The notes under the pieces are model-generated. The model was not told the DNA's origin and did no database searches. It saw nothing but the letters and a program-made list of their open reading frames with translations. Positions 1,219 through 24,545 of a stretch of 26,540 nucleotides of DNA are shown one piece after another. This stretch comes from a virus: positions 1 through 26,540 of the IMG/VR virus record IMGVR_UViG_3300035698_014748. One strand, given 5' to 3'. The position numbers and the translations under genes are program-made. The number at the start of each line of letters is the position of its first letter. The stretch's first letter is position 1.

Positions 1219-1476
1219 TTAAAATGAATCAAGTAATTTTTTCATCAACACATTTCTAGAGGTGAATCTTGATATACCTAACATTCCACATAAAAATTCA
1301 TGTTTTTCCATGTCATTCATAAGGTAAAAATATTGATTTGTTAAGTCACCCATATCAGATTTCTCCAATAATTGTTTAAAATCATCCATATCTATATCTA
1401 CTGGAACTTCCATTTCTTGGCGGTCACCATCTTCATCGAAGAACTTTACCTCGGCATAAATTCTTTTATTTTTCAT
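1219..1476 (-). CDS. Small acidic hypothetical protein, 85 aa
   Basis: Acidic protein beginning MKNKRIYAEVKFFDEDGDRQ; the first 30 residues look like two beta strands, followed by helices (DMDDFKQLLEKSD...). No family recognised. Its ATG overlaps the TGA of the HD-domain gene upstream by four bases (ATGA), so the two are co-translated, and a strong terminator follows immediately. It may be a partner of the HD hydrolase (inference from coupling only). Confidence 0.7.
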   Translation of the reverse strand: MKNKRIYAEVKFFDEDGDRQEMEVPVDIDMDDFKQLLEKSDMGDLTNQYFYLMNDMEKHEFLCGMLGISRFTSRNVLMKKLLDSF

Positions 1477-1961
1477 ATCTCAAATTTATTAAGCATGTTA
1501 TCAGCCTTGGTAAAGATACATAGTTTACCATATGTTGGTAGGTCTTCCATAGCTTTCACTTTCGCCTTACCCATCTTATCCATTTGCTTCATTCTCATGT
1601 GGTTTACCACCACTTCTTCAACAATAGCACTATCAGCACCCATAGCCTCGATGAATTCTTTATCCCTCTTAACCCATTTAGCACCAATAATCTCATGACC
1701 AAATGCTCTGAATTTCCCTTGTTTCTCTAAGGTCTTCTCAGCAGCAAGTAGTTTACCAATATCATGGTATAGACCAGCCATAATCAAATCAATATCACCA
1801 GTAGTGATAAGTCTATCAACCACAATTTTAATGTGCTCGAAGGTGTTATCTTCTGGATGCCATTGGGAATCTTCCTCATATGTCTTAAGTCGAGTAAGCT
1901 CGTCTTGTACATGTTGAGGTGCCATAGCCATTAATTGTTCAAATGTTGTAATTTTAGTCAT
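1473..1961 (-). CDS. HD-domain metal-dependent phosphohydrolase, 162 aa
   Basis: Contains a complete HD-superfamily signature: H43 (FEH), H66-D67 in YHDIGK, H89 (GHE), H121 (NHMRMK) and D154 (KADNM). This arrangement resembles the HD domain of CCA-adding enzymes and small stand-alone nucleotide phosphohydrolases, which remove phosphate from nucleotides, 2',3'-cyclic ends or similar substrates. The substrate cannot be read from sequence. The gene starts 4 nt after the -7 box of its promoter, so its mRNA may be leaderless. Given the kinase and RNA ligases in this window, a role in nucleotide or RNA-end metabolism is plausible (inference). Confidence 0.85.
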   Translation of the reverse strand: MTKITTFEQLMAMAPQHVQDELTRLKTYEEDSQWHPEDNTFEHIKIVVDRLITTGDIDLIMAGLYHDIGKLLAAEKTLEKQGKFRAFGHEIIGAKWVKRDKEFIEAMGADSAIVEEVVVNHMRMKQMDKMGKAKVKAMEDLPTYGKLCIFTKADNMLNKFEI

Positions 1962-6093: not shown

Positions 6094-6498
6094 TTATCTA
6101 AGTTTTAAAGAAGATTTTATTTTATCTTCCATACGACCCAAAGCTTCCTCTGGAACACCATGGACATTAACACCATCGTGACGATTTTCAACAACTAAAA
6201 ATATAGCAATATAACCATACTTAATACCCATTTTTTTGTATGTGTTAAATTCTTTCTCAGTTGTATTAGTGTTGGCTATAATAATTTCCTCAGTACCAAC
6301 CTTCATATTATCCTCACATTTAGTTTTACACGCATTGTGAGCAGCACCTAATTGTGATGCATCAAATTTGTATACACCAGCATACATGAAATAATCATCG
6401 GCACAACAAACAACACCAGTTAGACCAGCAATTGCTTTAGCTGCTGTTGATTTACCACAACCCGGTACACCTCTTAATATATATAATACTTTTCTCAT
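6094..6498 (-). CDS. P-loop kinase, N4BP2-L1/polynucleotide-kinase-like, 134 aa
   Basis: Walker A is GVPGCGKST (residues 10-18). CADDYFM (about 32-38) and the downstream YKFDASQLGAAHNACKTKC match the N4BP2-L1/AAA_33 pattern (DDYF...Y.FD...L..AH..C) of small kinases that phosphorylate 5'-OH nucleic-acid ends or small molecules. NTNTT and the C-terminal HGVPEEALGRM fit the strand and lid Arg region. The length is short but contains the full core. It follows the channel gene with a 1-nt overlap (TAATG). With RNA ligases in the window, a 5' RNA kinase role is plausible. Confidence 0.85.
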   Translation of the reverse strand: MRKVLYILRGVPGCGKSTAAKAIAGLTGVVCCADDYFMYAGVYKFDASQLGAAHNACKTKCEDNMKVGTEEIIIANTNTTEKEFNTYKKMGIKYGYIAIFLVVENRHDGVNVHGVPEEALGRMEDKIKSSLKLR

Positions 6499-12159: not shown

Positions 12160-12396
12160 TTAATTATTTTTACTACTTTTCATTATTACATTAGCTGTGT
12201 GTAAATTCTCATTATCAACTTTTACTGATGCTAATTCACGTTCACAGTCTTTAAGCTTAATGGTTAAATCACCAATTATCTCATCTTTCTTATCTAATAC
12301 TATTGTTTTCATGATATCAAATAGGTTTGATATCATCATCAAACCTAACAACGAAATCAAACCTATTATTATACCTCCTATTAATAACCCATTCAT
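12160..12396 (-). CDS. Small membrane protein with coiled coil, 78 aa
   Basis: N-terminal transmembrane helix (about residues 2-24, LLIGGIIIGLISLLGLMMIS), then a charged helical region with heptad-like spacing (DKKDEIIGDLTIKLKDCERE). Size and layout resemble inner-membrane spanins (Rz-like) but no partner outer-membrane spanin is seen, so this is only one possibility. It is 9 nt downstream of the RNA ligase C-half. Confidence 0.65.
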   Translation of the reverse strand: MNGLLIGGIIIGLISLLGLMMISNLFDIMKTIVLDKKDEIIGDLTIKLKDCERELASVKVDNENLHTANVIMKSSKNN

Positions 12397-12405
12397 ATTT
12401 ACATA

Positions 12406-12891
12406 TTACATACCTATATTATCGTTCTCTTTTTCGAAAAACCAATTTCTAGCTCTAGTAGAAATTGCACCACTTATTTCCTTTGGTTCAAAACCATTAT
12501 CCATTATAGTGTCTAGTTCTTCTTTTATAACATCGTTGAATACCCATTTAAGGTAAGCACCAAGGTTTTTTCTAGAGAATTCTAATCCTTGTTCTCTAAG
12601 ATAATCTAATCCTTGTAAAAGTCTAGGTTCTGTAACAACAGTTTCAACTAATTCTTTCATGTTGTTAACTCTTTCAATATCAACTGGCACTTTTTCCTTA
12701 GTTTTAGTACCCTTGTGAAGTTCACCTTTAGTCTTGAACCAGAACCTAGATTGAGTCCAACCAATATCAATACAAGTCCATACAATACCTTCTGACACCA
12801 TATTAGCATCAAACTTAATTATTTTCTCAATATTAATATTAATTGGTTTATTATTAACCCCAACTTCTTTAATTTCTAATTGTAATTCCAT
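12406..12891 (-). CDS. RNA ligase, C-terminal half, 161 aa
   Basis: Carries motif IV VSEGIVW (residues 32-38) and motif V WFKTKGE (51-57), followed by the helical C-terminal domain of this phage RNA ligase family (VNNMKELVETVVTEPRLLQG, YLKWVFNDVIKEELDTI, ISTRARNWFFE). Motifs I-IIIa are in the separate gene at 13837-14676. Residues 1-30 (MELQLEIKEVGVNNKPININ...) have no counterpart in intact ligases and look like an extension acquired at the break. The ATG is 2 nt after the stop of the GIY-YIG gene, so it is translated with it. The two halves probably assemble into one enzyme. Confidence 0.85.
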   Translation of the reverse strand: MELQLEIKEVGVNNKPININIEKIIKFDANMVSEGIVWTCIDIGWTQSRFWFKTKGELHKGTKTKEKVPVDIERVNNMKELVETVVTEPRLLQGLDYLREQGLEFSRKNLGAYLKWVFNDVIKEELDTIMDNGFEPKEISGAISTRARNWFFEKENDNIGM

Positions 12892-12892
12892 A

Positions 12893-13771
12893 TTAAACTG
12901 TTTTTTTTATTTTCCAATTATTCATTGATTTATATTTCCTTGGTTTACCTTTTAATCTAATAATACCATCGATTATTTGTTCTGGTCTTGGGAATTGTAA
13001 CCCATTGTCCTTGCAAAACATTTTTAAATTCATTGTCTTAAATTCATTACCATATAAATCAGTTAATAAATAACCATTTGCGTTAGTATTACCAAATTCA
13101 CCGATTTTGAATCTGATATCATCTTTATAAACCCTATGAAAATTCCCAAACCAATCCTTTGCAGTTATCATATCTTTACGCATTTCAGATAGTTTATCTT
13201 TTGTTTGTTTACTATGTTTCTTACCATCGTTATAATGTTTATATAATGTTGGGTTACTATAATACTCAGATTTACTAACCATTTTTTTATCACCAGAATC
13301 TAACTCGATTACAGATACTAAACCAGTGGTATGTCCAGATAAATCACAATTATTATTAAATTCTTCTTTAGTAACTCTACATTTTTCACCTGTCATTACA
13401 TTAATAGCAATAACTTCATTATTCCTACCATACATAGGGTTTATTTCACCAGAAACATCACGACCAAAAAAACCATTTACATTAGCTAAAGATTCATTAA
13501 AATATAAATTTGAATTCACCACATCATTTTCTTTTTGGTAATTATATTCAGCTAATAGAGCACTTTCCCTAGTATCATGCTCAGATAAAATTTCATAATC
13601 AAATAAACCTCTACCGTTCAAAACTTCTAATTTAAATTTATTTTTCCATTTTTTACTTCTAACACTACCTAAATAACCATTTTTTAATTTAGATAATTTA
13701 GTAGAACCAATATAGTAAGGTGGTAAATTTTCACCAGAATAAATTATTTTATAAACAACGTATTTTCCCAT
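12893..13771 (-). CDS. GIY-YIG homing endonuclease inside the RNA ligase gene, 292 aa
   Basis: The nuclease domain is at the N-terminus: YVVYKIIYSGENLPPYYIGS (residues 4-23), the Arg/Lys-rich LKNGYLGSVRSKKWK, FDYEIL and the Glu of ALLAEYNY. The middle has a NUMOD-type segment (EINPMYGRNNEVIAINVMTG), and the C-terminus has KKHSKQTKDKLSEMRKDM (NUMOD3-like) and a terminal DNA-binding tail. It lies between the N- and C-halves of the RNA ligase, cutting the gene between motif IIIa and motif IV. It shares a 16-bp upstream box with the GIY-YIG gene at 2459-3121. Confidence 0.88.
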   Translation of the reverse strand: MGKYVVYKIIYSGENLPPYYIGSTKLSKLKNGYLGSVRSKKWKNKFKLEVLNGRGLFDYEILSEHDTRESALLAEYNYQKENDVVNSNLYFNESLANVNGFFGRDVSGEINPMYGRNNEVIAINVMTGEKCRVTKEEFNNNCDLSGHTTGLVSVIELDSGDKKMVSKSEYYSNPTLYKHYNDGKKHSKQTKDKLSEMRKDMITAKDWFGNFHRVYKDDIRFKIGEFGNTNANGYLLTDLYGNEFKTMNLKMFCKDNGLQFPRPEQIIDGIIRLKGKPRKYKSMNNWKIKKTV

Positions 13772-13792
13772 ATCAAACTTTTTAATTAATTA

Positions 13793-13808
13793 TTATATTA
13801 ATAAATAT
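13793..13808 (-). promoter_or_regulatory. 16-bp box shared by both GIY-YIG genes
   Basis: Identical copy of the box at 3142-3157, 22 nt upstream of this endonuclease ATG. It lies in the only non-coding stretch (13772-13836) between the ligase N-half and the endonuclease. Confidence 0.4.
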
Positions 13809-13836
13809 GGTATTATATGGAAATGTTTTCATAAAA

Positions 13837-14676
13837 TTAAAATTTTATATATAAAATACCTTTTGGGTTATCTATTCTTAGTTTATTAAATATATTTTTT
13901 AACTCACCTTTAAATCTATTTTCAAACCCATTAGATTTATCAAACCAAATTTTACCATTTTCATCACAATATGCTGTATTATTATTCATAACATCCAAAG
14001 CAAATGCTTTAGCTACTGGACATTCCTTTTCAACATCATCCACTAATGCAGCCATTTTTTCAGCGGCCTCTTTAGGTTTGTTAAAATCGATTGCAATTTT
14101 ATAGTTAGGGTAATCACATATATTAAATATCCTATATTCAGGTAATTTAATTTTAGCTAAATCTTCTTCATGAAGCCAAATATTACCTACCTTAACTCCG
14201 AAGATAACAAACATCTTATCAAGTTGGGTAATACCAACACCCTTTTGGATTTTCTTACCACACCATTCCCCAAATACTTTAATTACTGGAGTTCCAGTTT
14301 GTTCAGGTTCACTATCTAGACTAATTGGTGTAAACCATTTATTAGTCAATTTAGATAGTAATTCACCAAGTGGTGTTGTATGAACAAATGCTGCAAAACC
14401 AGCGTTATCATTGGTTGGTGTTATAATACTAGTTCTAGATTGAGCGTGGAATTCATATTCACCCTCTTCATCAGGAGTAAATACAATACCAGCATTAGTA
14501 CCATGAAGTTTCACCGTACCACGATAATTTAACGTTGGTAATTCTTTTTTCTCATCATGCATAGGTTGGTCATCTTCATCTTGACCGATGTATGTCGCTC
14601 TGAAAGTTACTTGATGAATTGCGTTCCTGAATTGTTCGATATCTGGAAAACGATAAAAATTTTTATCTTTACTCAT
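13837..14676 (-). CDS. RNA ligase, N-terminal half with nucleotidyl lysine, 279 aa
   Basis: Motif I is KLHGTN (K57, the lysine that becomes adenylylated), followed by HAQSRT (motif Ia), FGEWCGK (motif III, 135-141) and KMFVIFGVKV (motif IIIa, 154-163). Homology runs to VEKECPVAKAF (215-225), where intact enzymes continue with a short turn and motif IV EGIVW. Here residues 226-279 (ALDVMNNNTAYCDENGKIWF...) are an unrelated tail, then TAA and the GIY-YIG gene. Motifs IV-V are in the gene at 12406-12891. The upstream HNH gene overlaps the ATG by 8 nt. Confidence 0.88.
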   Translation of the reverse strand: MSKDKNFYRFPDIEQFRNAIHQVTFRATYIGQDEDDQPMHDEKKELPTLNYRGTVKLHGTNAGIVFTPDEEGEYEFHAQSRTSIITPTNDNAGFAAFVHTTPLGELLSKLTNKWFTPISLDSEPEQTGTPVIKVFGEWCGKKIQKGVGITQLDKMFVIFGVKVGNIWLHEEDLAKIKLPEYRIFNICDYPNYKIAIDFNKPKEAAEKMAALVDDVEKECPVAKAFALDVMNNNTAYCDENGKIWFDKSNGFENRFKGELKNIFNKLRIDNPKGILYIKF

Positions 14677-15373
14677 AATTATATTTATTTAAATTACCTT
14701 CATAAATAACACCATTAATCTCTCTAGTGGTTGCCCATAAAGGTTGTAAGTTACTTAATGCGTTTACAACTGCTGGTGATGTATCAGATGAAAAGCTACT
14801 TATTGGTATCTTATGGTCCACATGCCATTCACCATGATTATCCCAAGACATACCTTCGGTAAAAAGTTTTTCTAAATGTTCTTTTAATTCTAAAGCAGAA
14901 TAACCAAGTACATCTATTGTTTTACCTTCTTTAGGTTTACCTAACCTTTTTAAATGACTTTTTAAAATACTTCGCCAAGTTACTATATGTTTATTATTTT
15001 TATTCCAAGCTCGATTTTTAGCTAAAACACTTTCCCTATTTTTTAAAAAATAATCTCTACTATACTCCTTAACTTTATCTTTGTTATTATCACGATATTC
15101 TTTTTTAATTTTTTTAACTTTATCTTTGTTATTATCACGATATTCTTTCATTTTAATTAAACATTCATTCCGATTACCATAATAATATTTTAAAGCTTTT
15201 TCTTTAAGTATATCACCTTTACAGTTTCTTTTATTTTTACTTCTATATGTAGCTTGTTTAATTTTAATACAAACAATACAATTACTGTTTAAACCATCTT
15301 TACAACTATTAGCTTTATAATAATCAACCAATGGTTTAAGTTCACCACAATTTTTACATTTTTTTAATTCCAT
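14669..15373 (-). CDS. HNH endonuclease with zinc-ribbon start, 234 aa
   Basis: The N-terminus has a zinc ribbon (CKNCGELKP ... CIVC, residues 6-35). Then comes a Lys/Asn/Arg-rich repeat arm, including two near-identical EYRDNNKDKVK units encoded by a 33-bp direct repeat. The C-terminus has the HNH core EWHVDHKIPISSF followed by NALSNLQPLWATT. This is the common free-standing phage HNH layout. It lies immediately upstream of the RNA ligase N-half and overlaps its start, so it is intergenic rather than inside a gene. Confidence 0.9.
   Translation of the reverse strand: MELKKCKNCGELKPLVDYYKANSCKDGLNSNCIVCIKIKQATYRSKNKRNCKGDILKEKALKYYYGNRNECLIKMKEYRDNNKDKVKKIKKEYRDNNKDKVKEYSRDYFLKNRESVLAKNRAWNKNNKHIVTWRSILKSHLKRLGKPKEGKTIDVLGYSALELKEHLEKLFTEGMSWDNHGEWHVDHKIPISSFSSDTSPAVVNALSNLQPLWATTREINGVIYEGNLNKYNYE
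15071..15148. repeat. Direct repeat of 33 bp, 45-bp period, inside the HNH gene
   Basis: Two identical 33-bp copies begin at 15071 and 15116. They encode EYRDNNKDKVK twice in the linker arm of the HNH protein. The period is 15 codons, so gain or loss of a unit keeps the frame. Confidence 0.85.
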
Positions 15374-15421
15374 AATATATTTTAATATAAATATAACGGA
15401 ATTTAATAAAATTAAGGGAAT

Positions 15422-15652
15422 TTATACATTTTTTGTTCCATCGTATTTTATTTTAGTTAACCATTCTCTTTTTCTAACAATTGTTTTACTAGTGTTATCG
15501 TAATCATGATAAGAAGTGAACTTCTCACCATCCCACACACCAGTTATTTCGAGGTTCACTTTTTTTGTACCATGTTTACCACCCCTAATTGCAGTCGTAA
15601 AACAGGCATCATCACCCGGCTCTAAGTAGCCACCTATTTTAACGTAATCCAT
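15422..15652 (-). CDS. Small hypothetical protein, 76 aa
   Basis: Starts MDYVKIGGYLEPGDDACFTT; mixed charge, mostly beta-like, with a basic C-terminus (KTIVRKREWLTKIKYDGTKN). No family recognised. It has its own promoter (15683-15714) with a leader of about 25 nt. About 50 nt of AT-rich sequence separate its stop from the HNH start. Confidence 0.65.
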   Translation of the reverse strand: MDYVKIGGYLEPGDDACFTTAIRGGKHGTKKVNLEITGVWDGEKFTSYHDYDNTSKTIVRKREWLTKIKYDGTKNV

Positions 15653-19720: not shown

Positions 19721-20209
19721 CTATAAATTAGATTTATACAAAAATAATAATAATAAATGGATTAAACAAGTAATTGCTTCAGGTTTATTAATTCCAACTG
19801 TAGATATTAATAACTGAGCATTAGAGTATACCGCATTTAACATCTTAATTGCCTTTTCAACTTCCTCGAAGTTTAGTAATGGTTCACCCATTGACATGAA
19901 CATGATTTGTAGTTTAGCGCATCTAGTATTTAATGAACCAATTTCATCACCTTCAATACCATCAATAATATGGGTTACTTGAGATACTATCTCTTGAGCT
20001 GTAAGGTTTCTGACAAATCTATTACCAGTTCCACAAAAGGTACATCCAACTGGACAACCACTCTGCACTGAACAACAGATAACTGTTCGTTCCTCGAAGG
20101 AACCATATTTGTATAGAACAGCCTCAGTGATAGCATTCTCAAATTCATATACATATTTCCACACATTACCTTCTGAACTGGGGAAAACTTTTACATTATC
20201 AGCTATCAT
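19721..20209 (-). pseudogene. 3'-truncated RlmN-like radical SAM gene, 162 aa
   Basis: Contains the RlmN/Cfr-type cluster CPVGCTFC (Cys-x3-Cys-x2-Cys) in CSVQSGCPVGCTFCGTG, then RNLTAQEIVSQV, MFMSMGEPLLNFEEVEKAI and LLISTVGI, all characteristic of RlmN, which methylates C2 of A2503 in 23S rRNA and A37 in tRNAs. RlmN is normally about 350 residues; here homology stops near residue 140, and the last codons (LIHLLLLFLYKSNL) are AT-rich junk overlapping the DNA ligase promoter. The region holding the catalytic C-terminal Cys is absent. Likely inactive, although it retains a perfect promoter. Confidence 0.8.
19739..19769 (-). promoter_or_regulatory. Promoter for DNA ligase
   Basis: Minus strand TTG (19767-19769), 20 nt, TATTTTTG (19739-19746), leader of about 20 nt to the ATG at 19716. 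It lies inside the last codons of the truncated rlmN-like gene. Confidence 0.75.
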
Positions 20210-22052: not shown

Positions 22053-23042
22053 TTATAACATTTTGTATAAGACTTTGTTATCGAAGTCTAACATATAAGA
22101 CTTAACGGATTCAACTTTTTTGTCTTTCAACGCAAAGTATAACCCAGTGAAGCCCTTAACATCATTTTTTGTTGTTACTTCGAAAACAGCCTCCGCAAAC
22201 TTCTTTCTTTCTTTAGGTTCAATGCTCTTTGGTAATCTAAGGATTAATTCATCCCAAGTTACTTCCAACCTCACTACCAAAGCATCATAACCAACTTTCA
22301 ATTTGAAGATTTCTTCCTTTCTTTCTGGGAAAGTAGCAGCAAATTCTTCAATTTCGTTAGATTTCACAACACCCATGATGTTATGTTCACCAGTTTTACT
22401 TTTCAAGTGATGAACAGCTACATAAGCTGGGTTTTTGATTTTAACCCTATTGAAGTCAGCATCGATTACAACGTAACCTTCTTCACTCCAAGGCATACCT
22501 TCAAAAGTCCTAATTAAAGCACCAGCGTCCATCGCATTGATATCAAAAGCTTTCACTAATGGTACACCATCGAATAGACGTTCAACATCCCTTAATTTTT
22601 CATAATTGAATTCCTCTAATGTATCAACATTTCTAATACCCAATAGAGTAACAGATGATGTTGCGTGAGGTTTAACAACTATATTATATGGTGTTGTTAA
22701 TTCAAATGCATATGCATGTCCTTTTACAAGGAAATCTAAATCAAATGATTCGTTGTTATTTGAGTTAATTCCATTGAATTTACCTCTCATTGAACCAATT
22801 GCATTCCAGAAAAGGTCAGCGAATGTAGTACCAAACTTGTTGTTTACTTCACCGTCAGCCTCTGGTGTACCAGTAGTACCAACACACCATATTTCTTTAT
22901 GCCAATCCCAATATAGTTGAATCATTGAATTATGTACCAAGATACCATTAGCAAAGAAATTATGCGTTTCTTTGGTTTCAATATCGTACCTCTTAGATTT
23001 ACAATCTATTTTCTTTATATTTTTAATTTTAACCACTTCCAT
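22053..23042 (-). CDS. RNA ligase 1-like, C-terminal piece with split-intein C-part, 329 aa
   Basis: Residues 1-38 are an intein C-fragment: RYDIETKETHNFFANGILVH (block F/G) ending in His37-Asn38, followed by the +1 extein Ser39. The extein then gives the rest of a T4 Rnl1-type ligase: SMIQLYWDWHKEIWCVGTTG, motif III YAFELTTPYNIVVKP, motif IV EEGYVVID and motif V VKIKNPAYVAVHHLK, then a helical C-terminus. The N-piece is at 23185-23778. Trans-splicing would give an enzyme of about 389 residues, near T4 Rnl1's 374. A 142-nt relic-bearing gap separates the genes. Confidence 0.93.
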   Translation of the reverse strand: MEVVKIKNIKKIDCKSKRYDIETKETHNFFANGILVHNSMIQLYWDWHKEIWCVGTTGTPEADGEVNNKFGTTFADLFWNAIGSMRGKFNGINSNNNESFDLDFLVKGHAYAFELTTPYNIVVKPHATSSVTLLGIRNVDTLEEFNYEKLRDVERLFDGVPLVKAFDINAMDAGALIRTFEGMPWSEEGYVVIDADFNRVKIKNPAYVAVHHLKSKTGEHNIMGVVKSNEIEEFAATFPERKEEIFKLKVGYDALVVRLEVTWDELILRLPKSIEPKERKKFAEAVFEVTTKNDVKGFTGLYFALKDKKVESVKSYMLDFDNKVLYKML

Positions 23043-23047
23043 ATTAA

Positions 23048-23155
23048 CTATCGTTTTATAATTTCAAACTCATCTAAAGAACAACTCTCACCATCCCATC
23101 TAGGTAGTTCCCCACCATACCCTTTAATTGTATGATACACCCACCATCGTAATGC
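23048..23155 (-). pseudogene. 35-codon gene relic between the split-intein genes
   Basis: Frame open from 23155 to the TAG at 23048, reading ALRWWVYHTIKGYGGELPRW then DGESCSLDEFEIIKR. The composition (Trp, Tyr, Gly, acidic end) is protein-like, but there is no ATG and a TAA lies directly upstream. It may be the tail of a gene once inserted between the two halves; no family recognised. Confidence 0.4.
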
Positions 23156-23184
23156 TTATATAATACCATAATTTACCCATATTA

Positions 23185-23778
23185 TTATTTATTTATTAAA
23201 AATTCATCTTCTTCGGTTAACTCATCTACCCTACGGTAACATTTTAACTTAGGTAACCATACTTTATGATTAGCTGTTAATTTAATAGTGGTACCTTCTT
23301 CTAATTCTATCTCAAACCAGTTATTAATGTTCTTCTTAACGGAATGACCTACTATTTCATCATACACCTCTTCACCTTTCTCAACATCATAAGATAAAAC
23401 CTTACCTGAATATTCTGTTTCACATATTTCCTTTATAGTCATCTCACCATCCTCAGTAATTAATATAGTATCTTCATGGCAACAACCATCTACTTTTTCA
23501 AGTATTCTAGCTGTGTTCCAATCTATCTTAGCGGCATGACCTTCTTGTGTATTGAAGAACTTTCTGAATGCTAAAGACATCACTTTCCATGTATCTCGTT
23601 CAAGTATAAGACCTCTACAATCTTGTACTTCATCAAAACCCATTGGAGATTCCAATTGAGAGTATTTCAGTAAAATTTTCTTATCATGTACGTTACATTT
23701 AAGTTTAAAAGAATCAATTGCTTTAGCAAGTCCGTGTTCCTTAATAAATGTAACGATTTTTAATTCTCTTTTTTCCAT
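23185..23778 (-). CDS. RNA ligase 1-like, N-terminal piece with split-intein N-part, 197 aa
   Basis: Residues 1-98 are the start of a T4 Rnl1-type RNA ligase: DCRGLILERDTWKVMSLAFR, KFFNTQEGHAAKIDW and motif I EKVDG with the nucleotidyl lysine K95. At Cys99 an intein N-fragment begins: block A CCHEDTILITEDG, and block B GTTIKLTANHKVW with the conserved TxxH ending at His171; it ends EFLINK with a real stop. 99 residues is a typical split-intein N-part. Insertion lies directly after KVDG, splitting the catalytic motif from the Ser that starts the other piece. No endonuclease domain is present. Confidence 0.93.
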   Translation of the reverse strand: MEKRELKIVTFIKEHGLAKAIDSFKLKCNVHDKKILLKYSQLESPMGFDEVQDCRGLILERDTWKVMSLAFRKFFNTQEGHAAKIDWNTARILEKVDGCCHEDTILITEDGEMTIKEICETEYSGKVLSYDVEKGEEVYDEIVGHSVKKNINNWFEIELEEGTTIKLTANHKVWLPKLKCYRRVDELTEEDEFLINK

Positions 23779-24080
23779 TATTTCTTATTTTTACTTCTTT
23801 TAACACTATCACTAATTTTCTTTTTATGTTCCTCAGAATGTCTTTTACCTTTTCTATTTTTACTTTGTTTTATTTTTAATTCATTAGCTTTATCAATACC
23901 CATTATTTCTTCATATGTTTTACCTTTATGGGGAGATTCTTTACCTTCATTGGGTATACCATTGTCCCATGAAGCACTTGTAGACCAATCACCATCTTGG
24001 CCTGATGTAGTTGTTTTAGCAGCTGCACCTAATACTATTGTAGTTACTATAAGTAATATTATTGTTAAATATATTCTCAT
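23778..24080 (-). pseudogene. Signal-peptide protein start fused to a homing-endonuclease tail, 100 aa
   Basis: Residues 1-21 are a signal peptide (MRIYLTIILLIVTTIVLGAA), followed by TTTSGQDGDWSTSASWDNGI, a start typical of secreted Bacteroidota surface proteins. At about residue 46 this changes to GKESPHKGKTYEEIMGIDKA and then KRHSEEHKKKISDSVKRSKN, the NUMOD3-type DNA-binding tail of GIY-YIG/HNH homing endonucleases. The endonuclease core and the rest of the secreted protein are missing, so this looks like a deletion between an inserted endonuclease and its target. It ends one base into the RNA ligase start. Confidence 0.75.
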
Positions 24081-24091
24081 ACTAATAAATA

Positions 24092-24134
24092 TTAAAATAA
24101 AGTGTTAGTTGTTAAACCAGACACTTTATTTTAA
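24092..24134 (-). terminator. 14-bp AT-rich hairpin, probable terminator
   Basis: Perfect 14-bp stem (plus-strand TTAAAATAAAGTGT against ACACTTTATTTTAA) with a 15-nt loop. The GGDEF stop codon lies in the stem, and the minus-strand trailing arm ends in T-rich sequence. It separates the GGDEF operon from the fusion relic and ligase N-piece. Confidence 0.6.
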
Positions 24135-24545
24135 TGTTTTTCTAACTAATTTAGCTTCTAGCATTTTACTATCAGCTTTATTAATCGATTCAAACATATC
24201 ATCAGTTAATTCAGCAACACCAATAGTATAGTAGCTATTATTAAAAATAGCGTTACGTCTATTAGTAAATAAAATGAACTCATCACCAGCATAACGCACT
24301 AAGAATTCGTCTTTCAGTACTAGAATACTTTTAATCGCTTCCTTAATATATTCATCACCGAAAGTGTGACCCTTTTTATTAATTTCGTGTAAATCATTAA
24401 TATCGATGAAGAACACCCATTCTTTATCAATTTTATTGATATTTTTATATAACCAATTACGATTCAATAACCCAGTTAATGAATCATGGTAAGCCAAGTA
24501 TTTTAGCTCCTTATAATCACGTATGGTATTTATAATCGAAAACAT
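24126..24545 (-). CDS. GGDEF-domain protein (diguanylate-cyclase-like), 139 aa
   Basis: HDSLTGLLNR (residues 20-29) is the standard opening of GGDEF domains; FIDIND (46-51, metal ligand D48) and INKKGHTFGDEYI (55-67) follow, then RYAGDEF (84-90), where AGDEF is an accepted active-site variant. YTIGVAEL and a final helix complete a compact domain. The guanine-binding loop is one residue shorter than usual (INKKGH for INDxxGH), no RxxD inhibitory site is visible, and there is no sensor domain. It may make cyclic dinucleotides or act as a non-catalytic binder. It overlaps the gene upstream by 29 nt. Confidence 0.85.
   Translation of the reverse strand: MFSIINTIRDYKELKYLAYHDSLTGLLNRNWLYKNINKIDKEWVFFIDINDLHEINKKGHTFGDEYIKEAIKSILVLKDEFLVRYAGDEFILFTNRRNAIFNNSYYTIGVAELTDDMFESINKADSKMLEAKLVRKTLK

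Follow-up and report, generated by a model that had tools for sequence, protein, structure and literature searches.

The 26.5-kb virus record IMGVR_UViG_3300035698_014748 of the IMG/VR collection (positions 1 to 26,540; hereafter the window, meaning the whole stretch of DNA that was analysed) carries two neighbouring open reading frames (ORFs) that together appear to encode a single RNA ligase of the Rnl1 family, interrupted by an intein whose two halves lie in separate genes. All features described here are read on the minus strand and are listed in Table 1. In the upstream ORF (the N-piece), the ligase sequence runs to the nucleophile motif K95-V96-D97-G98 and is followed by Cys99, the first of 99 intein residues in all, and a TAA stop. 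This N-terminal intein half (IntN) contains block A (CCHEDTILIT) and block B (LTANHKVW, with the TxxH signature). The downstream ORF (the C-piece) begins with a 38-residue C-terminal half (IntC) containing block F (RYDIETKETHNFF) and block G (ANGILVHN), closes it with H37-N38 and continues from Ser39 as ligase. The first-pass annotation, prepared from the DNA letters alone, had placed K95-V-D-G, Cys99, blocks A and B and a stop in the N-piece, and 38 residues ending in HN followed by Ser in the C-piece; both descriptions were correct to the residue. No same-frame path joins the two pieces across positions 23043-23184.

Table 1. Features of the split RNA ligase gene and of two other genes in the window.
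Feature	Position	Strand	Description	Basis or remark
N-piece ORF	23778..23185	-	197 aa; ligase residues 1-98 + 99-aa IntN	
C-piece ORF	23042..22053	-	329 aa; 38-aa IntC + 291 ligase residues	
N-extein	23485..23778	-	Rnl1 residues 1-98, ending in motif I (K95-V-D-G98)	runs straight into C-extein in 49 intein-less relatives
IntN	23185..23484	-	99 aa, Cys1 to Lys99, + TAA stop	TIGR01445, PF14890, alignments
Gap between halves	23043..23184	-	142 nt, stops in all three frames	endonuclease gene at this place in relatives
IntC	22929..23042	-	38 aa, own ATG	TIGR01443, alignments
C-extein	22053..22928	-	Ser+1 + remaining 290 Rnl1 residues + stop	phrog_562 E=3e-23; TIGR02308 partial match
P-loop polynucleotide-kinase-like protein	6094..6498	-		phrog_2071, phrog_505 polynucleotide kinase, phrog_6931 185-274
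HD phosphohydrolase	1473..1961	-		PF01966, phrog_6931 22-151

The same annotation had proposed a naturally split intein at the KxDG/S position of an Rnl1-type ligase and an intein profile search of both pieces as a check. Profiles run on the pieces and on their joined products bear the proposal out. The IntN profile TIGR01445 scored 35 bits on the N-piece (cut-off 24.5) and the IntC profile TIGR01443 scored 34.9 bits on the C-piece (cut-off 15.6). The intein family PF14890 gave 36.6 bits on the N-piece, just above its cut-off of 35.8, and 27.9 bits on the C-piece; on the two halves joined in silico (137 residues) it gave 63.6 bits. For the ligase, PF09511 reached 26.8 bits on the N-piece, below its cut-off of 28.3, had no match on the C-piece and scored 51.3 bits on the joined exteins (98+291 = 389 residues), which also matched phrog_562 with E=4.7e-41. 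At the nucleophile motif, KEDGSL of T4 Rnl1 aligns with KVDGSM of the joined ligase. The residues predicted to carry out splicing are all present (C99, TANH, H37-N38 and S39) and are kept across seven aligned alleles. These matches confirm, at the level of profiles and alignments, the prediction that the gene is an Rnl1-family RNA ligase interrupted by a naturally split intein.

Each piece alone is predicted to be inactive, because ligase motifs III-V are missing from the N-piece and the nucleophile lysine from the C-piece. The AlphaFold2 models obtained for both pieces are of low confidence (predicted local distance difference test scores of 63.5 and 62.2) and provide only fold hints: the best matches in the Protein Data Bank (PDB) were inteins for the N-piece and, for the low-confidence C-piece model, T4 Rnl1 (2c5u, 7e-6). 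IntC modelled alone had a very low predicted confidence. Directly upstream of the N-piece lies an ORF (23778-24080, minus strand) in which a NUMOD3 fragment follows a signal-peptide-like start; the stop of this ORF shares one base with the start codon of the ligase.

Comparison with intact Rnl1 homologues, another check suggested in the first-pass annotation, located the junction exactly. Related viral contigs contain 49 distinct Rnl1 genes without an intein, in which nothing separates the N-extein from the C-extein and the junction reads KxDG/T (34 genes) or KxDG/S (15 genes). Ten distinct alleles, the window included, are filled; all are split at the same two end points, and every IntC begins with its own start. 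The first residue after the intein (+1) is Ser in 10 of 10 filled alleles (Fisher p=5e-5 against the empty ones, a value that ignores kinship). One pair of filled and empty genes, at loci L005 and L035 (loci are labelled L plus a number), matches at 149 of the 150 nt that precede the junction, and the first codon past it is TCA (Ser) in the filled gene as against ACC (Thr) in the empty one, as would be expected if the insert had carried its own Ser codon by co-conversion. No relative was returned when the N-piece alignment was searched against genome contigs of GTDB.

The filled alleles are scattered over the extein tree, with nine changes of state, at least seven of them forced by well-supported branches, and are no more clustered than in shuffles (on a quickly built extein tree with some long branches). 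The intein is more alike among these genes than its host: of the eight other alleles in the comparison, seven have an IntN 78-84% identical to that of the window and one, L002, an IntN 58% identical, and the C-exteins are 52-60% identical to that of the window. Median ratios of nonsynonymous to synonymous substitution (dN/dS) were 0.083 for IntN, 0.087 for IntC, 0.165 for the N-extein and 0.223 for the C-extein, many pairs being saturated at synonymous sites. All four parts are thus under purifying selection, which is stronger on the intein parts than on the ligase.

Five filled alleles (L005, L042, L051, L065 and L066) have a free-standing endonuclease ORF of about 300 residues or longer between the intein halves. 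The ORF is truncated in L002 and L044 and absent in L050 and in the window. In L054 it falls into two frames, and sequencing error is the likely cause since the N-extein of this allele is frameshifted too. The relatives' endonuclease matches phrog_3339 (homing endonuclease; E=5e-16), and its C-terminal region, where such similarity would be expected, gives weak matches to Vsr (E=0.011) and to I-Bth0305I (PDB 3r3p, E=0.12), which makes it a candidate member of the EDxHD/Vsr-like family. Filled loci with this gene have the arrangement called fractured genes. The endonuclease gene that belongs between the halves in this arrangement is found in relatives of the window, and the window copy, with only a short gap in its place, is an endonuclease-less stage. 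We detected no endonuclease remnant in that gap; it holds a 35-codon open stretch (minus strand, no start codon) reading ALRWWVYHTIKGYGGELPRWDGESCSLDEFEIIKR, which has no homologue among the loci compared.

The intein of the window belongs to a clade that, in the IMG/VR collection searched, is found only in ligases. When the intein parts served as queries, the loci recovered included other ligases, in each of which the interruption directly followed Kx[DH]G. A hidden Markov model (HMM) trained on seven Rnl1 alleles only ranked 31 ligase-site inteins first among the matches listed, at 61-197 bits, the best non-ligase intein among them scoring 54.5 bits. Two scans were blind to the host gene. 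The first took the DNA pattern of intein block G alone on viral contigs and then scored the upstream IntN; within this sample alone, eight of the nine ligase-site IntN sequences, two of the eight being near-copies, stood above all 73 others among the matches listed. The second, run to completion over IMG/VR viral contigs with an intein-derived DNA pattern of blocks F and G, recovered 57 stretches, of which 42 were distinct and one was spurious; all 41 remaining distinct inteins lie in ligases (three judged by the C-extein only).

Insertion is directly after Kx[DH]G in 32 of these 41 and two residues past the motif (KVDGQS/C) in L317. Five more (L288, L297, L310, L326 and L327), all in PF09414 RNA ligases, are inserted ahead of motif I at a KTDExR/C-type site, a second site within that family. 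Across all 48 members of the clade, the insertion point is in most cases immediately behind Kx[DH]G; in two it is shifted downstream by two residues, and five members occupy the KTDExR-type site. The joined exteins of representatives checked fall into several families: PF09511 Rnl1 (L138, L192 and L308), phrog_562 (L067), RNA ligases of PF09414 and/or phrog_968/24030 (L136, L143, L270, L288, L291, L310, L317 and L326) and ATP-dependent DNA ligase PF01068 (L141, L260, L290 and L293). L304 has a split intein at KLDG/C of an NAD-dependent DNA ligase (PF01653), and the joined exteins of L137 (KPDG/S) had no family match in Pfam or PHROG. In a tree of 71 inteins the 31 ligase inteins form one clade (support 97), and in a tree of 88 the ligase clade is pure, with 48 of 48 members in ligases (bootstrap 98); its subclades largely follow host family. 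The sequences of the reference inteins NrdJ-1, Npu DnaE, gp41-1 and IMPDH-1 were entered by hand, not copied from database records. Among distinct inteins scoring above 90 on the ligase IntN profile, 28 of 29 are split, the sole exception being a contiguous 127-residue mini-intein at KLDG/S of an Rnl1-like ligase (L271:3731-5251).

Among named phages (50,697 records, three IntN queries) no hit was a member of the clade. The nearest inteins there are 28-40% identical, and the six hosts inspected, by appearance a UvsW-type helicase, UvsX, ribonucleotide reductase (RNR), a clamp-loader subunit and an unassigned gene, included none with a Kx[DH]G junction. In the genomes of L080, L084 and L085 (loci L284 and L285), two RNA ligases on the same contigs are fractured. 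One is an Rnl1 whose split intein belongs to the ligase clade; the other, a phrog_548 ligase, is interrupted at KLHG/S by a split intein of another lineage.

Outside the split gene, the kinase-like protein and the HD phosphohydrolase of Table 1 each match one half of phrog_6931, the HD protein the N-terminal half and the kinase the C-terminal half, and are possible RNA end-healing partners of the ligase. The lysine of motif I is the site of attachment of adenosine monophosphate (AMP) in this superfamily, as established for T4 Rnl1, and the spliced ligase would restore Lys95 in that role. Sets of RNA end-healing and sealing enzymes have been described in large phages (PMC7824862). The kinase, HD protein and ligase of the window are consistent with such a set, and the ligase may serve in the repair of transfer RNA cleaved by the host.

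The window encodes a second RNA ligase (PF09414/phrog_548), also in two pieces (12406-14676, minus strand; N-part 13837-14676, C-part 12406-12891), with a GIY-YIG ORF (12893-13771) between them; the KLHG/T motif of this ligase is intact, and no intein was recognised in it. We recognised no group I intron in the window, since an Rfam scan over its whole length had no match at gathering scores; a relaxed scan of 12300-15500 gave sub-threshold matches only. Among the remaining genes are an RlmN-like radical SAM ORF (19721-20209, minus strand), whose C-terminal end is apparently truncated, and an ORF of 139 residues with a GGDEF domain (24126-24545, minus strand; PF00990), in a phage contig.

Taken together, these data make it very likely that the Rnl1 gene of the window carries a trans-splicing split intein that is a mobile element, one of a clade spreading among ligases with covalent nucleotidyltransferase chemistry. 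Mobility is suggested by the intein-less close relatives, the scattered filled alleles and the homing-type endonuclease gene in relatives. The 197- and 329-residue proteins would be produced separately, and IntN and IntC would come together and follow the usual class 1 splicing pathway: Cys1 would take up the N-extein as a thioester, the chain would pass to Ser+1, Asn38 would cyclise and an amide bond would then form. Joining KVDG to S in this way would rebuild the adenylylation motif around Lys95 in a ligase of 389 residues. The ancestral insert would have had the endonuclease gene between its halves; the enzyme would cut ligase genes that lack the intein, and the whole insert would be copied in during repair. 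The window copy would have lost the endonuclease gene, and we propose that its intein persists because only an exact deletion restores the ligase. Moves between families probably came about because the DNA encoding Kx[DH]G is the common core of the target. We lean towards a clade that tracks the active site rather than the gene, its endonuclease reading the DNA of the shared Kx[DH]G codons; movement among T4-type and PF09414 RNA ligases and ATP- and NAD-dependent DNA ligases is, on this evidence, somewhat favoured.

Several observations weigh against this account. The window allele itself has no endonuclease gene, and the endonuclease family also occurs beside some non-ligase inteins. L271, being contiguous, shows that not every clade member is split. 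L183 is attached to the clade by a long branch and has a low profile score (22.8), and support is weak for some deep branches within the clade. The Rnl2-like KLHG/S inteins indicate that motif I was invaded more than once, independently: on the tree that of L009 falls outside the clade, and the L080 type, which is not among the tree sequences, scores low on the profile.

The first-pass annotation had also suggested that splicing could control ligase activity. If so, the split intein would be kept at the catalytic lysine so that the ligase assembles only under certain conditions or at certain times. Such a switch would suit the interruption of the nucleophile motif itself, with the halves as separate genes, the confinement of the clade to ligases and the retention of the intein in the window and L050 without the endonuclease gene. 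It would suit the stronger purifying selection on the intein parts as well, but strong selection is expected anyway because the intein must splice out of a useful enzyme. Moreover, 49 distinct close relatives do without the intein, its distribution is scattered and unlinked to lineage, and relatives have an endonuclease gene between the halves, a combination in keeping with a mobile element; we found no direct support for control and identified no regulatory element. A regulatory role thus seems unlikely.

Vertical descent, in which the intein would predate the divergence of the ligase families and would never have jumped between them, agrees with an intein tree that largely groups by host family (Rnl1, ATP-dependent DNA ligases, KxHG RNA ligases). 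We regard it as highly improbable, however, because most Rnl1 relatives have an empty site, the intein is scattered in distribution and better conserved than the gene that it interrupts, and PF09414 ligases are entered at two different sites. It is harder still to believe that a former intein-containing gene has decayed into the two ORFs and that nothing is spliced. The loss of the endonuclease gene from the window copy and the broken look of other window genes (the PF09414 RNA ligase and the RlmN-like ORF) might hint at decay, yet both ORFs are open and intact with all splicing residues present, dN/dS is about 0.08-0.22 across the four parts, and the split is identical in ten distinct alleles. 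Finally, an assembly or sequencing error that broke one contiguous ORF, the outcome that the first-pass annotation had named as refuting its proposal, might be suspected in a metagenomic contig with a contiguous related intein in L271 and frameshifts elsewhere in L054, but is effectively ruled out by a split point common to ten distinct alleles, the 49 distinct empty genes, the separate start codon of IntC, the stops in all frames of the gap, the full-length endonuclease genes between the halves in some alleles and, between the halves of two less closely related ligase inteins (L138 and L192), an endonuclease ORF on the opposite strand, which no contiguous reading frame could contain.

The closest parallel to a mobile split intein of this kind is the set of fractured genes that Dassa and colleagues reportedly described in 2009 from phage-like metagenomes, with split inteins and free-standing endonuclease genes; the reported hosts include genes for helicase, IMP dehydrogenase and ribonucleotide reductase, and ligases are not known among them. 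As in those genes, the split intein interrupts an enzyme gene and is itself divided where an endonuclease is usually inserted, into halves of about 100 (IntN) and about 38 (IntC) residues; relatives of the window have a free-standing, putatively Vsr-like endonuclease gene between the halves. The differences are that the interrupted gene encodes an RNA ligase, that no endonuclease gene is left in the window copy, and that the clade occurs in several ligase families at one motif. NrdJ-1 (PDB 8ubs), whose IntC ends THNFFANDILVHN, is a solved split intein with pieces of similar size and a sequence match to both pieces, but its host is ribonucleotide reductase; it groups with RNR inteins outside the ligase clade and scores 27.6 on the Rnl1-trained HMM (its sequence entered by hand) as against 61-197 for the top-ranked ligase inteins. 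T4 RNA ligase 1 (PDB 2c5u) represents the family of the predicted spliced product, its KEDGS aligning to KVDGS, but is encoded by one uninterrupted gene, unlike the split gene of the window.

Among ligases, an intein in a halobacterial ATP-dependent DNA ligase was reported in 2014 (PMC4071816); its host likewise belongs to the nucleotidyltransferase superfamily, but it is archaeal and comes from one genome, and we found no statement there of a split or of a KxDG position. The DNA polymerase B of phage MIJ3 is a gene pair with a split intein and an endonuclease ORF between the halves, though its host is a polymerase and its endonuclease is of the HNH type (PMC6892783). The open-access papers searched contain no mention that we could find of an Rnl1-type ligase with an intein, and the first-pass annotation had named no such host. 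What is new is a host gene for which we found no earlier intein report, and a clade that extends across ligase families; the latter is the more important of the two.

For genome annotation, these split inteins explain how phage ligase genes can show up as two separate fragments. The clade is also a source of several dozen split inteins, as yet uncharacterised, whose +1 residue is Ser, Thr or Cys; they would be of use in protein engineering if active, and the contig group with two RNA ligases cut by different split inteins is a natural test of orthogonality. Loss of the endonuclease gene is visible in stages at one site, where it is full, truncated or gone. Inteins are usually described as tied to one site and one gene family; the occurrence of one clade across four ligase families, all using the same lysine chemistry, makes homing across families testable with defined filled and empty alleles.
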